Shown in pieces: positions 7,261 to 29,780 of a stretch of DNA of 64,000 nt (the first letter of the stretch is position 1; every line of letters begins with the position of its first letter). The notes under the pieces were generated by a model. That model saw nothing but the letters and a program-made list of their open reading frames with translations. It was not told where the DNA came from and searched no databases. The position numbers and the translations under genes are program-made. This DNA comes from Mogibacterium sp. (GTDB taxonomy: Bacteria; Bacillota; Clostridia; Peptostreptococcales; Anaerovoracaceae). The stretch covers positions 41,524 through 105,523 of the forward strand of contig JAFWGQ010000065.1 in the NCBI GenBank assembly GCA_017512365.1. Reading direction: 5' to 3'.

Positions 7261-7328
7261 GTTAATAATATTCGCGCACCCCATAAGTTGTACTTAATTA
7301 GCAACAATTTCTGAAAAAATGTTAATAT

Positions 7329-7505
7329 AACAGACGCCGGATGTCCCCGTCTTAATGTGCGTATAGGAGGCGGGTTCCATATTCGATCGTCAGTGGCGGG
7401 TCGCAATTCCCCGACTGACGATCTCATGAGCTGAAGCTCCCGGCGTCTGTTGACGGCGTCGCTCGCTCCAACCAAGCGAGCCTGATGGAGCTTCGCTCCT
7501 GGTTG
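7329..7505 (+). ncRNA. Structured leader RNA, candidate riboswitch upstream of the DUF2284-corrinoid operon
   Basis: A 12-bp perfect outer stem (AACAGACGCCGG 7329-7340 with 7440-7451) encloses at least three elements. These are a short CCCG/CGGG stem in 7341-7384, a strong hairpin (GATCGTCAGT 7385-7394 with 7414-7423, extended by CGGG/CCCG) and a GAGC-TGAA-GCTC hairpin (7428-7439). Downstream a 7-bp hairpin (GCTCGCT 7461-7467 with 7475-7481) exposes loop CCAACCA. Six bases of this loop are complementary to TGGTTG at 7500-7505, across another hairpin (7487-7499), so a pseudoknot or an alternative fold is possible. The next gene's ribosome binding site is at 7524-7530. No Rfam class was recognised. 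A DNA-level inverted-repeat element is the main alternative. No clear promoter was found. Confidence 0.55.
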
Positions 7506-7536
7506 AAGGCTGTATTGAGCGGATGAGGAGGATCGA

Positions 7537-11168: not shown

Positions 11169-11203
11169 GGTTCTGCACTGCAAAACATGAATAAGATGAA
11201 GTT

Positions 11204-11366
11204 TACGGTGCCCCGATGATCCGGGGAGAATAGGGAAGCGGGTGAGAATCCCGCGCGATCCCGTCACTGTGACAGAGCGTGCCGTTCCGGAATGCCACTG
11301 GGCATAACAGAAAGCCCGGGAAGGCGGAACAGCATGTCAGGCTCTTAAGCCAGGAGACCTGCCGTA
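11204..11366 (+). promoter_or_regulatory. Cobalamin (AdoCbl-type) riboswitch aptamer
   Basis: It contains the classical ordered motifs: ACGGTGCC at the P1 strand, AATAGGGAAGCGGGTGAGAA, CCCGTCACTGTGAC, the B12 box GCCACTG at 11294-11300, CCCGGGAAGGC, then the AGGCTCTTAAGCCAGGAGACCTGCCGT ending split across 11339-11365. P1 closes between 11204-11208 and 11362-11366. An intrinsic terminator follows at 11489-11518, so control is probably transcriptional: cobalamin binding should switch off the genes at 11560-13691. The stretch 11088-11139 before the promoter holds nothing recognisable. Confidence 0.96.
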
Positions 11367-11488
11367 GCTTTGTACATGAGACAGTCATCATCAGACCCGC
11401 AGTGCCATGGGTGATGAGGACGGTCTCCGGACCACGGGGAATTGGTCGTACAGTATTACAGGGAGTGATGCTCCCCGTTTTCTGACGT

Positions 11489-13747: not shown

Positions 13748-13784
13748 CAGAGCCTGCCCGCAGAGACAGGCTCTGCGCTTTTTT
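13748..13784 (+). terminator. Intrinsic terminator ending the cbiK transcript
   Basis: CAGAGCCTG (13748-13756) pairs with CAGGCTCTG (13767-13775) around a 10-base loop. The run TTTTTT at 13779-13784 follows. It separates the riboswitch unit from the 20-gene operon that starts at 13900. Confidence 0.9.
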
Positions 13785-13791
13785 AGAGTGT

Positions 13792-13965
13792 TTGTGTATT
13801 ATCCGTCTGATATGCAGATCTCATACACAATTTTTGCTTATTATTGTGTATGGATCAGCCGGATCCGGGAAATAATACACAAAAAGGAGGAACTCTGGGA
13901 TGTTTTCAGAAGAAAAACAGGCAGATTTGTGTATGGATCCCGGAAATCGCTTCGGGTTTACACAA
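13792..13965 (+). promoter_or_regulatory. Array of three long inverted repeats (six phased half-sites) before and inside the cobalamin operon
   Basis: TTGTGTAT at 13792-13799, 13844-13851 and 13927-13934 is each followed, after exactly 23 bases, by ATACACAA (13823-13830, 13875-13882) or TTACACAA (13958-13965, one mismatch). Half-site centres are 31, 21, 31, 52 and 31 bp apart, close to whole helical turns, so all six face the same side of DNA. The third repeat lies inside the first codons of the binding-protein gene. The pattern fits cooperative binding of a dimeric regulator and possibly looping. The regulator is not identified, and no clear sigmaA promoter was recognised in the stretch. Confidence 0.75.
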
Positions 13966-15102
13966 GCTGCGTGTATCGTCATACTGCTTCTTGCTCTGGC
14001 CCTTTCCGGGTGCGGCGGCAGTGCGAAAAATACGGGCAGCGCATTCGATGATCATCACAAGGGCTCGATGGAGCTGAAATACGCGGATCAGTTTCGCGTA
14101 GATTATTACGATGACGGCATAAGCGTGGTCAGGGTGGAAGACGGACTTGACTATCTGGTCACTGACGGCTCCGGAGAACTTCCGGACTGGCTGTCCGAAG
14201 AAGACATAAAGGGCATGACTGTCATAAATGCGCCTGCGCGCAAAGTCTATAATGCGGCGTCATCCGCGATGGATCTCATCGACGCTGCAGGAGCGATCGA
14301 CTCGGTCGTAATGACGAGCACTCAGGAGAGCGACTGGAGCATAGACAGGATCAGAAAACTTGTAGGGGACGGGACGATCCGCTACATCGGCAAGTACCGC
14401 TCACCGGACTATGAAGCACTTGTCGAGGATGATGTCGATCTTGCGATCGAGTCCACCATGATATATCACAATCCTCAGGTCAAGGAAGCGATAGAGGAGC
14501 TGGGGATCCCGGTCCTTGTGGAGCGCTCGAGCTATGAATCCGAACCGCTCGGCAGAGTGGAATGGATAAAGCTCTACGGACTGCTTTTCGGTAAGGAAGA
14601 TGAAGCGCAGGCGTTCTTTGATGAGTCGGAGGCAAAGCTGAAGGCCATAGACACAGATGCAGTGAAGGACTCTCCTTCGGTGGCTTTCTTTTCGGTGAAT
14701 TCGAACGGTTCGGTCGTCGTGAGAAAGCCGGGCGACTACGTCACGAAGATGATGGAAACGGCCGGAGGGACATACGCTCTTGACGGCATAACAGATGACG
14801 AAGACAATGCGCTTTCCACCATGAACATGCAGATGGAGGCGTTCTATGACAAAGCTGTCGATGCTGATATACTCATCTATAACAGCACGATCGAAGGCGG
14901 ACTCGGAAGCATAAGCGATCTGACGGCTCTTTCGGACGGATTCAATGACTTTGCCGCGGTGAAGAACGGGAACGTATGGTGTACGGACGCCAGCACATTC
15001 CAGAAGACGACCGGAGCGGCGGACATGATAACAGAGATGAACCGCATATTTGCCGGTGCCGCTGATGACAGCGGGATGGAGTATTTCCATAAACTGAGAT
15101 AA
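13900..15102 (+). CDS. ABC transporter substrate-binding lipoprotein (BtuF/FepB family)
   Basis: A 400-residue extracellular receptor lipoprotein, first gene of the 20-gene operon. AAAAGGAGG precedes ATG 13900. The lipobox (ALSGC) Cys is residue 38, so about a dozen residues precede a normal signal peptide; an internal ATG at 13933 would give a typical length, but the ribosome binding site favours 13900. The coding sequence of residues 10-22 contains the third inverted repeat of the operator array. The mature part is a two-lobed class III binding protein with a NAPARKVYNA start and an NSTIEGG segment. Followed at 6 bases by a permease. Location suggests cobamide or precursor uptake; heme or siderophore cannot be excluded. 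Confidence 0.85.
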   Translation: MFSEEKQADLCMDPGNRFGFTQAACIVILLLALALSGCGGSAKNTGSAFDDHHKGSMELKYADQFRVDYYDDGISVVRVEDGLDYLVTDGSGELPDWLSEEDIKGMTVINAPARKVYNAASSAMDLIDAAGAIDSVVMTSTQESDWSIDRIRKLVGDGTIRYIGKYRSPDYEALVEDDVDLAIESTMIYHNPQVKEAIEELGIPVLVERSSYESEPLGRVEWIKLYGLLFGKEDEAQAFFDESEAKLKAIDTDAVKDSPSVAFFSVNSNGSVVVRKPGDYVTKMMETAGGTYALDGITDDEDNALSTMNMQMEAFYDKAVDADILIYNSTIEGGLGSISDLTALSDGFNDFAAVKNGNVWCTDASTFQKTTGAADMITEMNRIFAGAADDSGMEYFHKLR

Positions 15103-27647: not shown

Positions 27648-29780
27648 ATGATGAGACCTATCATTTTTTCAGGAACGACTGAAGGAAGACAGATGTCGGA
27701 GAGGCTTTCCGCTGCCGGCATAGATCACATAGTATGTGTGGCGACTGAGTACGGAGAGCTTGTAATGCAAAGGACTCCGCACGCCGATATCAGACAGGGC
27801 AGGCTCGATGCGGAGGGGATGAAGAAGCTGTTCAGCGCAGAGGCATCCTCGGTATTTGATGCCACACATCCTTATGCGGCTGAGGTATCTGAGAACATAC
27901 GAGAGGCGTGCGGCAGCACCCATAAGGGATACGTGAGGATACTCAGGGCTGAGCCGGGACCTGAAATGATCGAAGGCAACCGGATATTTGCGGATGCGGC
28001 CTCATGCGCGAAGGCGCTGAAGGATACGGCGGGGAATATACTGCTCACGACCGGAAGCAGGGACATAGCCGTCTACGCGGCCGATCCCGGAGTCAGATCC
28101 AGGCTGTTTGCGAGGATCATTCCGTCCGAGGAAAGCATAAGGTTTTGCAGCGCTGCTGACATCAGCGGAAGACAGGTGATAGCGATGCAGGGCCCGTTCA
28201 GCTGTGAGATGAACAAGGCGCTGATCATGCAGTACGGCATAAAGCTGCTCGTCACAAAGGCGAGCGGAACGGAGGGCGGTTTCCAGGAGAAGATAAGCGC
28301 TGCCCGCGAATGCGGCATCCCCGTCTTCATAATAGGAAAACCGGTCGAAGAGCAGGGAATGACGGCGAGCGAGGCTCTGGAAGTCTTCTTTGAGATAAAG
28401 CCGGTGACACAGGTGGATCTCATCGGAACGGGGCCGGGCAGAGAATCACTCATGACTGAAGAAGCGCGCGAAGCGGTCAGAAAGGCGGACATCATATTCG
28501 GCGCGGAGAGGATGATCGCGTCCTATCCGGGAAAAGAAGCATATCCGTACTATTTTGCCCGCGACATGATACCCGTGCTGGAAGAACGCCGGCCGGAAAG
28601 AATAGCGGTGCTGTTCTCGGGTGATACGGGATTCTGCAGCGGAGCAGCGAAAACGGGTCCTGAACTTGCAGCGTGGTTTGAAGAAAGCGGATCCGCGTAC
28701 GTGATAAGGCAGCATCCGGGGATATCTTCATTTGCCTATCTCGCGGCGGTCACGGGAGAGCCATACACGAACGCCGGCCTGTGCAGCATGCACGGAAGGA
28801 CGGGCGATGAGAAGAATGAAAAGGAAGTGATACGTGCGATAAGGGAACACGGAAGAACGTATCTCCTCCTTTCCGGAGAAGAGGATGTGAAGAGGCTGGG
28901 AAGCCTGCTCACTGAGAACGGACTCGGGGAATGCATGGTGGTACTGGGATATAAGCTTGCAGGCCCGGAAGAAAGGATAGAGTTGCTGAGACCTGAAGAG
29001 TGTCTGTATGTGTCTGAGAAAGGACTGTATACCGCTCTCGTCCTGAACGAGGATCCTGCAGAACCGGCTGAGCCGGCGGTAAAAGAAGAACCTGCAGCGG
29101 AAGACATGCATGCGGCAGAAGACACGCCTGCAGCAGAAGACACGCCTGCAGCGGAAGAGATACAGGCGGCAGAAGCGGATGAAGTTCCGGGAGAAAGGTT
29201 CCTGATGCCTGTCATAGCCGATGATGAATTCATGAGGGCGAAGGTCCCGATGACCAAAGAGAACATAAGGCATCTCAGTATCATAAAACTCGGACTGAAA
29301 GAGGGATCGGTCCTCTATGACATAGGAAGCGGCACCGGCACGATAGCGTGCGAGGCCGCGATGCAGAGCGGCGGTCTGAAGGTATACGCCATAGAAATGA
29401 GGAAGGCTGCCTGCGACCTCATTGAAAAGAACGCGGACAAATTCGGCCTTGCAAACATAGAGGTCGTTAACGGAAGGGCGCCGGAGGCATTCGGCGGGCT
29501 CGAGGCGCCGACGCACGCCTTCATAGGCGGCAGCTCGGGAGAACTGAAGGACATACTGGATATCCTCGCCGAGGCCCCGCAGGGCGTACGCGTCGTGATA
29601 AACGCCGTGAGCCTTGAGACCATGGCTGAGATAAAGAACATCCCTGCTGACTACGGAGTCACGGATCTCAGCATCGAACAGATATCGGTCAACAGATCGA
29701 GAGAACTCGGCAATTACCATCTGATGACAGCAGAAAATCCGGTCCTGATAGCAGCCTTCACTCTGGGTGGAAAAGAATGA
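27648..29780 (+). CDS. cbiJET: Triple fusion CbiJ-CbiE-CbiT (precorrin-6A reductase and precorrin-6Y/7 C5,15-methyltransferase)
   Basis: A 710-residue protein with three enzyme domains. Residues 1-250 match CbiJ, cobalt-precorrin-6A reductase (FSGTTEGRQMSERL, VFDATHPYA near 69, AMQGPFSCEMN near 182). Residues about 255-460 match CbiE, the C5-methyltransferase (VDLIGTGPGRESLM, LFSGDTGF). Residues about 517-705 match CbiT, the C15-methyltransferase/decarboxylase (VPMTKENIRH, YDIGSGTGTIA, FIGGSSGE). An acidic Ala/Pro/Glu linker between CbiE and CbiT is encoded by about four imperfect 18-bp tandem repeats (29101-29172). CbiE-CbiT fusion is well known as CobL; addition of CbiJ is less common. It overlaps cbiA in ATGA. 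Confidence 0.93.
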   Translation: MMRPIIFSGTTEGRQMSERLSAAGIDHIVCVATEYGELVMQRTPHADIRQGRLDAEGMKKLFSAEASSVFDATHPYAAEVSENIREACGSTHKGYVRILRAEPGPEMIEGNRIFADAASCAKALKDTAGNILLTTGSRDIAVYAADPGVRSRLFARIIPSEESIRFCSAADISGRQVIAMQGPFSCEMNKALIMQYGIKLLVTKASGTEGGFQEKISAARECGIPVFIIGKPVEEQGMTASEALEVFFEIKPVTQVDLIGTGPGRESLMTEEAREAVRKADIIFGAERMIASYPGKEAYPYYFARDMIPVLEERRPERIAVLFSGDTGFCSGAAKTGPELAAWFEESGSAYVIRQHPGISSFAYLAAVTGEPYTNAGLCSMHGRTGDEKNEKEVIRAIREHGRTYLLLSGEEDVKRLGSLLTENGLGECMVVLGYKLAGPEERIELLRPEECLYVSEKGLYTALVLNEDPAEPAEPAVKEEPAAEDMHAAEDTPAAEDTPAAEEIQAAEADEVPGERFLMPVIADDEFMRAKVPMTKENIRHLSIIKLGLKEGSVLYDIGSGTGTIACEAAMQSGGLKVYAIEMRKAACDLIEKNADKFGLANIEVVNGRAPEAFGGLEAPTHAFIGGSSGELKDILDILAEAPQGVRVVINAVSLETMAEIKNIPADYGVTDLSIEQISVNRSRELGNYHLMTAENPVLIAAFTLGGKE
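29101..29172 (+). repeat. 18-bp tandem repeat encoding the CbiE-CbiT linker
   Basis: Four units of 18 bp (GAAGACACGCCTGCAGCA type) start at 29101, 29119, 29137 and 29155, with a partial unit before. The two central units differ at one base only. They encode repeats of EDTPAA. Because the unit length is a multiple of three, copy number can vary by slippage without breaking the frame. Confidence 0.85.

Follow-up and report, generated by a model that had tools for sequence, protein, structure and literature searches.

Solo LTRs and MITEs are regulatory ends left after an element has lost its coding part, and REPINs are thought to be copied by RAYT transposases. In the portions of two reports drawn on here, the REP/REPIN and RAYT (TnpA-REP) system combines a chromosomal enzyme gene, bordered by palindromes of its own type, with dispersed extragenic copies of that type, with several types per genome and co-evolution of enzyme and site (PMC3116915; PMC8266576). 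Helically phased sites of another kind are bound by Lrp/AsnC proteins, which in the part of the source used here recognize same-face sites at two or three helical turns, Ss-LrpB wrapping about 100 bp (PMC2995911). The repeat array at the start of a cobalamin operon in Mogibacterium sp. has features of each of these. We consider it probable, from comparison of sequences, that the array is the solo leader of an undescribed nuclease-like gene whose body has been lost, that a protein of the same family binds and wraps such leaders, and that the operon captured this one.

Within the window, by which we mean the whole 64,000-nucleotide stretch analysed, the pattern TTGTGTAT-N23-ATACACAA occurs twice exactly and once with one mismatch (Table 1). 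Allowing up to three mismatches, a scan gave four matches against 0.01 expected, a number reached in none of 100 shuffles; the fourth, at 28732, is solitary and carries three mismatches. The palindromes are 39 bp long, with 8-bp arms and 23-bp spacers, and their half-sites lie 31, 21, 31, 52 and 31 bp apart. The first gene of the operon encodes a Peripla_BP_2 protein by profile match, and for each of the nine ORFs tested downstream the best NCBIfam match is to an ABC-transport or cobalamin gene, with CobQ, CobT, CbiB and CbiD above the curated cut-offs and the remaining five ORFs below. A simple scan of the stretch from P2 to the start codon gave no sigma-70-like promoter, and the sole cobalamin riboswitch detected in the window precedes the upstream genes. 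The preliminary description had reported these repeats and spacings, the position of the third repeat inside the first gene, a terminator upstream and an operon without its own riboswitch, all of which we recovered. It had also taken the second and third repeats for a duplicate; they are instead palindromes three and four of a standard four-palindrome array, all of which the sister genome carries at its cobalamin locus, including the P1 (L044 2088) that is absent from the window. Elsewhere in the window, positions 7326-7507 hold a 183-bp dispersed repeat that is 94.5% identical to one on contig C49 (L014 2248-2429) and similar to another at L047.

Table 1. Features at and around the array (window coordinates).
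Feature	Position	Strand	Remark
Cobalamin riboswitch of preceding genes	11189..11380	+	Context only
Terminator-like hairpin and T run	13748..13786	+	Just upstream of P2; stem 13759-13777
Palindrome P2	13792..13830		Exact; half-sites TTGTGTAT / ATACACAA, 31 bp apart
Central linker at array dyad	13831..13843		A/T-rich across family (TTTTnnnGAAA type)
Palindrome P3	13844..13882		Exact
GGAGG, probable ribosome-binding site	13886..13890	+	Same place after P3 as in nuclease gene
Putative relic of nuclease codons 1-24	13896..13967	+	Frame from 13896, start codon now TGG
First cobalamin-operon gene	13900..15102	+	Peripla_BP_2, BtuF-like
Palindrome P4	13927..13965		One mismatch; within coding region

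The array belongs to a dispersed population. Across the window's genome (G000; 2.46 Mb in 74 contigs), 39 places matched the full pattern at no more than three mismatches, against 6 for the reversed control, and GTGTA-N24-26-TACAC palindromes numbered 75 against 7; 63 of the 68 palindromes fetched have a partner at the array pitch. The palindromes of a full array follow one another at 83, 53 and 83 bp, symmetrically about the dyad, which gives half-site spacings of 31/52/31/22/31/52/31. Three half-site classes were seen in this genome, namely TTGTGTAT, GGTGTA(A/T) and TGTGTAC, nearly uniform within an array and combined at three long loci (C31, C40 and C43). The neighbours, as named by reading their translations, are unrelated to one another: rpoC/rpsL (L017), truB/ribF (L039), metG/tatD (L015) and a xanthine-dehydrogenase cluster (L006), with single palindromes before truA (L012) and other genes. 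The arrays are thus not restricted to cobalamin or cobalt genes. At a broader scale, 6 of 60 genomes had the double-palindrome core, every one of them from this genus and the window's own among them, with none in any control. Among 47 genomes of the genus, nine, again including its own, contain at least four palindromes (G025 73, G000 55, G069 33, G008 28, G003 24, G066 8, G021 7, G009 4 and G014 4), and the other 38 contain 0-2, the control giving at most 2.

Some copies form composite arrays of about 0.9 kb (L009 5792-6761, L011 5750-6673 and L010 6790-6905), which are 89-93% alike at C40 and C43 and partly so at C31. They are bordered by inverted, GC-rich repeats of about 110 bp, a copy of which also lies after the stop codon of the nuclease gene described below. 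A HaeIII-type restriction endonuclease gene (L041 6848-8005; Pfam E 2.8e-26) adjoins a composite array in G025. Palindromes of the TCCGTATCAAA... type occur in tandem every 65 bp at L185 (G014:C2:63383-63549), and similar ones occur singly in G025 (C71), G026, G030 and G033.

One TGTGTAC array of the window's genome (C43:57249-57504) occupies the 5' end of P0001, an ORF of 283 residues, and its last palindrome falls within the first codons. Homologues of P0001 are present in 42 of the 47 genus genomes (E 1e-5), most of them without dispersed GTGTA arrays, and in 25 of 198 genomes of an order-level sample (E 1e-20); 24 of these 25 belong to the same family, with proteins of about 280 residues, and in the last the match, within a 1240-residue frame, is limited to the nuclease half. 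The C-terminal half, about 120 residues, matches the PD-(D/E)XK-type PADLOC profile PDC-S68 with an E value of about 1e-24; Pfam and NCBIfam gave no family match above cut-off, and no PDB match was better than E 0.44. Across the 28 sequences of alignment A1 (28 of 31 homologue loci, leaving out L120, L143 and L156), E180 and D210 are invariant and E224 nearly so, and the usual ExK lysine is not evident, the motif reading W-E-H-x-G. Profile similarity suggests a PD-(D/E)XK-like C-terminal half and a putative nuclease. No family member scanned matched an HUH (Y1) IS200/IS605-type transposase in Pfam or NCBIfam. An arm-type (AP2-like) N-terminal half was a mere impression that profile searches did not support. 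A viral or plasmid family was considered and rejected: the viral_contigs search gave no relatives for A1 (23 stretches matched a pattern) and two nuclease-domain matches for A2, the phage search gave three records for P0001, and the plasmid search gave six for L134, covering 34-48% of it.

Arrays are a recurrent feature of the start of these genes. Measured from the start codon, the palindromes of close homologues lie near -186, -103, -51 and +32, with some places empty in some genes, and the half-site word differs between genes: GGTGTA (G003:C15, G069), GGTGTG (G023, G003:C14), GATGTA (G014, G018), TGTGTA (G021), TCCGTA/TCAGTA (G068) and TTTGTAG/GTTGTAG (G063). Because P4 is coding, the protein residues change with the word (VY..YT, VW..HT, MY..YI). 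At least two related 31-bp palindromes were found in 12 of 30 windows upstream of family genes against 1 of 105 controls, a count that covers 30 of the 31 loci (the upstream sequence of L120 being too short), includes one gene twice (L121/L156) and used a filter that dropped GGTGTG. In 52 upstream and 196 control windows (24 of 28 new loci; L120, L143 and L156 left out), inverted 7-mers were most enriched at 30-32 bp, with 30 against 23 (0.58 against 0.12 per window); further enrichment was seen at 21-23, 33-38 and 51-53 bp and, to a smaller degree, at 12-14 and 24-29 bp, so that remoter family members would use other spacings or none. At one locus, L160 4101-5620 (G003:C15), a four-palindrome array stands both before and after the nuclease gene.

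Compared with these leaders, the array of the cobalamin operon is in register throughout. Measured from the inferred ancestral start at 13896, its TGTGTA words begin at -103 (P2), -51 (P3) and +32 (P4); in the intact genes L115, L117, L119 and L123 the P2 equivalent begins at -102 to -105 and the P3 equivalent at -50 or -51, and P4 of intact nuclease genes is likewise at +32, spanning about codons 12-23; the three positions of the window's array are those of L117. By palindrome position the window's array therefore fits among nuclease-gene leaders. Over codons 1-24, 41 of 72 nucleotides agree with the nuclease gene, more than at any other position in the window (mean 18.3), and outside the half-sites 25 of 53 agree, which 0.13% of window positions reach. 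In the nuclease frame, 13896-13967 translates as WDVFRRKTGRFVYGSRKSLRVYTS against MDIFRDQIDRIVYEQKKLLEVYTN of the nuclease, and 13896-13970 as WDVFRRKTGRFVYGSRKSLRVYTSC against MDIFRDQIDRIVYEQKKLLEVYTNE, ungapped; the array at the same place in the sister genome reads DDVFKKIFDEIVYEKKKSPGPYTG. Between G000 and G025 the half-site cores of the array are identical at 36 of 36 positions and its spacers at 45 of 75 (p 7e-7), with coding sequence 89% identical. The N-terminal codons of the nuclease thus appear to be present at P4 as a relic whose register is strong and which the sister genome also shows, with a tblastn E value of 0.018 that is weak as a single match. With the ancestral start now TGG and the BtuF-like ORF starting 4 nt later in another frame, the unusual N-terminal extension of the first gene, to which the preliminary description had drawn attention, is explained: on the evidence of the reading frames, it is the nuclease relic read in another frame.

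Similar relics of the first nuclease codons lie at other solo arrays. In G068 they reach 80% over residues 1-40 (L181, C1) and 79% over residues 3-35 (L182, C31), and in G021 69% over residues 1-26 (L180, C45); in the window's own genome the values are 64% (L005, C20), 61% (L017, C67) and 56% at a lone palindrome (L038, C40). When the outer palindromes of the window and 54 loci were read outward, 6 of 61 non-gene readings scored at least 15 against 2 of 248 controls (Fisher p 0.001). These six include the window and its sister-species orthologue, leaving five that are independent, and the remaining 55 of 61 showed no relic above the cut-off.

In several genomes the half-site word of the dispersed arrays also follows the resident gene. 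GGTGTG palindromes occur in 3 of the 47 genomes (14 in G003, 4 in G023 and 1 in G008), and genes with GGTGTG leaders were seen in G003 and G023; 11 of the 14 in G003 lie away from the gene, and 3 of the 4 in G023 lie at it. TCMGTA palindromes number 10 in G068, 7 of them away from its TCCGTA/TCAGTA-leader gene, and 0-3 elsewhere except in G014, whose 5 recur at 65-bp intervals and seem to be of another family. For GATGTA, G014 and G018 have 3 palindromes each and the other genomes 0-2, counts that alone prove little. One pair of genes has an array between them in G009, G014 and G018: its half-sites are GGTGTA throughout in G009, and GGTGTA and GATGTA are mixed in G014 and G018, which have GATGTA-leader genes. 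At a hydroxyacyl-dehydratase locus, the array of G066 has GGTGTA half-sites, and that of G003, a genome with both gene types, combines GGTGTG with GGTGTA. To judge from such pairs, half-sites at shared places look as if they have changed in place, one by one. A resident gene accompanied by dispersed palindromes of its own type, the arrangement of REPIN/RAYT systems, was found in G003 and G068, not in G008 or G025. No homologue was detected in G008 (28 palindromes) at E 1e-5 or 0.01, and G025 (73 palindromes) and G066 (8) have remote homologues only; in the window's genome, which contains GGTGTA arrays, we found a single homologue, whose half-sites are TGTGTAC, and no gene led by GGTGTA. The missing genes may have fallen into repeat-associated gaps of the assemblies, or those classes may be recognised by a different protein. 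A DnaA-box or NikR-like half-site was set aside, the word changing between classes.

The DNA between the half-sites carries a signal of its own. Averaged over 75 half-arrays, A/T peaks recur about every ten bases outward from the dyad, and a strong A run adjoins the innermost half-sites. With half-sites masked and copies thinned to 38 with less than 40% spacer identity, the best A/T period was 10.4 bp with an amplitude of 0.078, against a null mean of 0.0145 (sd 0.0047; maximum of 500, 0.033), the null having been scanned over 9.5-11.5 bp only and the data over 5-20 bp. Since the median spacer identity over all copy pairs is 0.29 against 0.25 expected at random, shared ancestry alone is an unlikely cause of this period. 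The arrays look like wrapped DNA.

These observations enabled us to propose a model for the array and its protein. The solo leader would consist of a phased operator array, a ribosome-binding site and the first 24 or so codons of the nuclease-like gene, and would have been left before the BtuF-like gene in the common ancestor of the species and its sister, after loss of the gene body. A domain of the nuclease-family protein may read the half-site, a dimer binding each palindrome through half-sites three helical turns apart, and four dimers on one face of the DNA could then engage the region around the dyad and wrap about 260 bp of it. At the protein's own gene this wrap would cover the ribosome-binding and start region, resulting in repression and hence autoregulation. 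The same protein would occupy solo leaders elsewhere, where half-sites would stay under selection and follow its changes in specificity. In this model, the cobalamin operon took over the start signals of the leader, namely its ribosome-binding site and perhaps its promoter; the array may therefore still affect the operon, whose expression is probably coupled to the nuclease-family protein and not to B12. As it resembles a leftover nuclease-gene start and is one of many dispersed arrays, the array is probably not a B12 switch, and the repeats are probably part of an unrecognised gene-plus-array system in these rumen bacteria. A more speculative extension, which we put at slightly under an even chance, is that these are selfish nuclease genes that wrap their own start in a nucleosome-like fashion over about 260 bp, leave wrapped solo leaders in the chromosome, drag the half-sites along in trans and have leaders captured by host operons. 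That such a combination of gene and site population would be unlike REPIN/RAYT, restriction-modification and homing genes is put forward equally tentatively; we found no account of such a gene-plus-array system in open-licence PMC full text.

The most serious alternative is that the nuclease actively copies the arrays as non-autonomous mobile units, in which case they would not be remnants of lost genes. Many copies, the close identity of the composite copies at C40 and C43, the gene with arrays on both sides in G003:C15 and the absence of the palindrome from 59 of the 60 loci around first-gene relatives would all suit active copying. We nevertheless regard it as unlikely, since the spacers of the copies are nearly unrelated, and some arrays occupy the same place in different species with half-sites that differ there. 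Less likely again, and in our view improbable, is that an ordinary transcription factor or nucleoid protein, with Lrp-like wrapping and a broad regulon that happens to include the nuclease genes, uses the arrays as its operators. Lrp proteins, according to the section of the source used here, wrap DNA and recognize sites separated by two or three turns (PMC2995911), which agrees with the 31-bp spacing and the wrapping signature, and the arrays of G008 and G025 lack a close nuclease homologue. However, half-sites differ between paralogues of one genome and follow the gene (GGTGTA against GGTGTG in G003), nuclease codons lie at solo arrays, and the arrays are missing or nearly so in 38 of 47 congeners.

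A dedicated regulator of the cobalamin operon, as the preliminary description had envisaged, now seems very improbable. The array covers the start of an operon without a riboswitch of its own and is conserved in the sister species. That description was right in seeing a real, helically phased site of protein-binding type, unfamiliar and overlapping the first gene. Its dedication to cobalamin is largely refuted by the dispersed copies, and a B12-specific operator was rejected as arrays of the same geometry stand beside unrelated genes. The genome-wide search that it proposed did find scattered copies beside unrelated genes, the result that it had named as refuting; the copies are nevertheless not meaningless, being leader arrays of a nuclease-like gene family and their relics, with conserved half-sites. 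The leaders of relatives also spoke against a dedicated regulator, as a GTGTA-N24-27-TACAC palindrome was found at only one of 60 loci fetched around first-gene relatives (L055; sister species, RUG13917), in the same position as in G025. In three other species a different repeat array, with CATAC/GTATG words and a period of about 74 bp by eye, occupies the same spot before the BtuF-like gene (L057 4700-4950, L061 4690-4930 and L062 4720-4900). Finally, that the arrays act as RNA hairpins (attenuators or mRNA stabilisers) is hardly credible: the arms are complementary and some central linkers could potentially close a hairpin, but an Rfam scan of the window and eight loci gave no match at the arrays, and 23-nt loops, helical-turn spacing and the 10.4-bp A/T period point to double-stranded DNA.

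The reading of the array as a solo nuclease-gene leader links an orphan gene family to a DNA code composed of a half-site word, the 31/52/31/22/31/52/31 spacing and 10.4-bp A/T phasing, and offers a natural series of protein and site pairs with changed specificity. It also offers bacterial DNA whose sequence seems adapted to wrapping, and a metabolic operon that has acquired the start of a different gene as its own. Should the protein turn out to have nuclease activity, one would have to ask directly why cells retain tens of its binding arrays.

Set against the described systems, the closest likeness is to REPIN/RAYT, which in the parts of the reports cited above also pairs an enzyme gene that has its own palindrome type with a dispersed population of that type. 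The difference lies in both partners: RAYT/TnpA-REP proteins are HUH enzymes acting on single-stranded, folded REPs, which are palindromes of 20-40 bp, whereas the protein here is PD-(D/E)XK-like, and its sites are 31-bp-spaced half-sites in phased arrays, with unconserved spacers and an overlap with the first codons of the gene. The arrays share with Lrp/AsnC operators, as far as these are covered in the source used, the helical phasing of same-face sites and DNA wrapping, which here is suggested by sequence; they differ in being inverted pairs of one word about a dyad, spanning about 260 bp, and in their link to a nuclease-like family and not to Lrp. PDC-S68 and other PADLOC PD-(D/E)XK defence candidates match the C-terminal 120 or so residues, but profiles of this kind are about 1200 residues long, whereas the protein here has about 280 residues, another N-terminal half and a leader array. 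As with solo LTRs and MITEs, a regulatory end is what appears to be left over; unlike them, it does not derive from a retroelement, and its half-sites appear to stay under selection.
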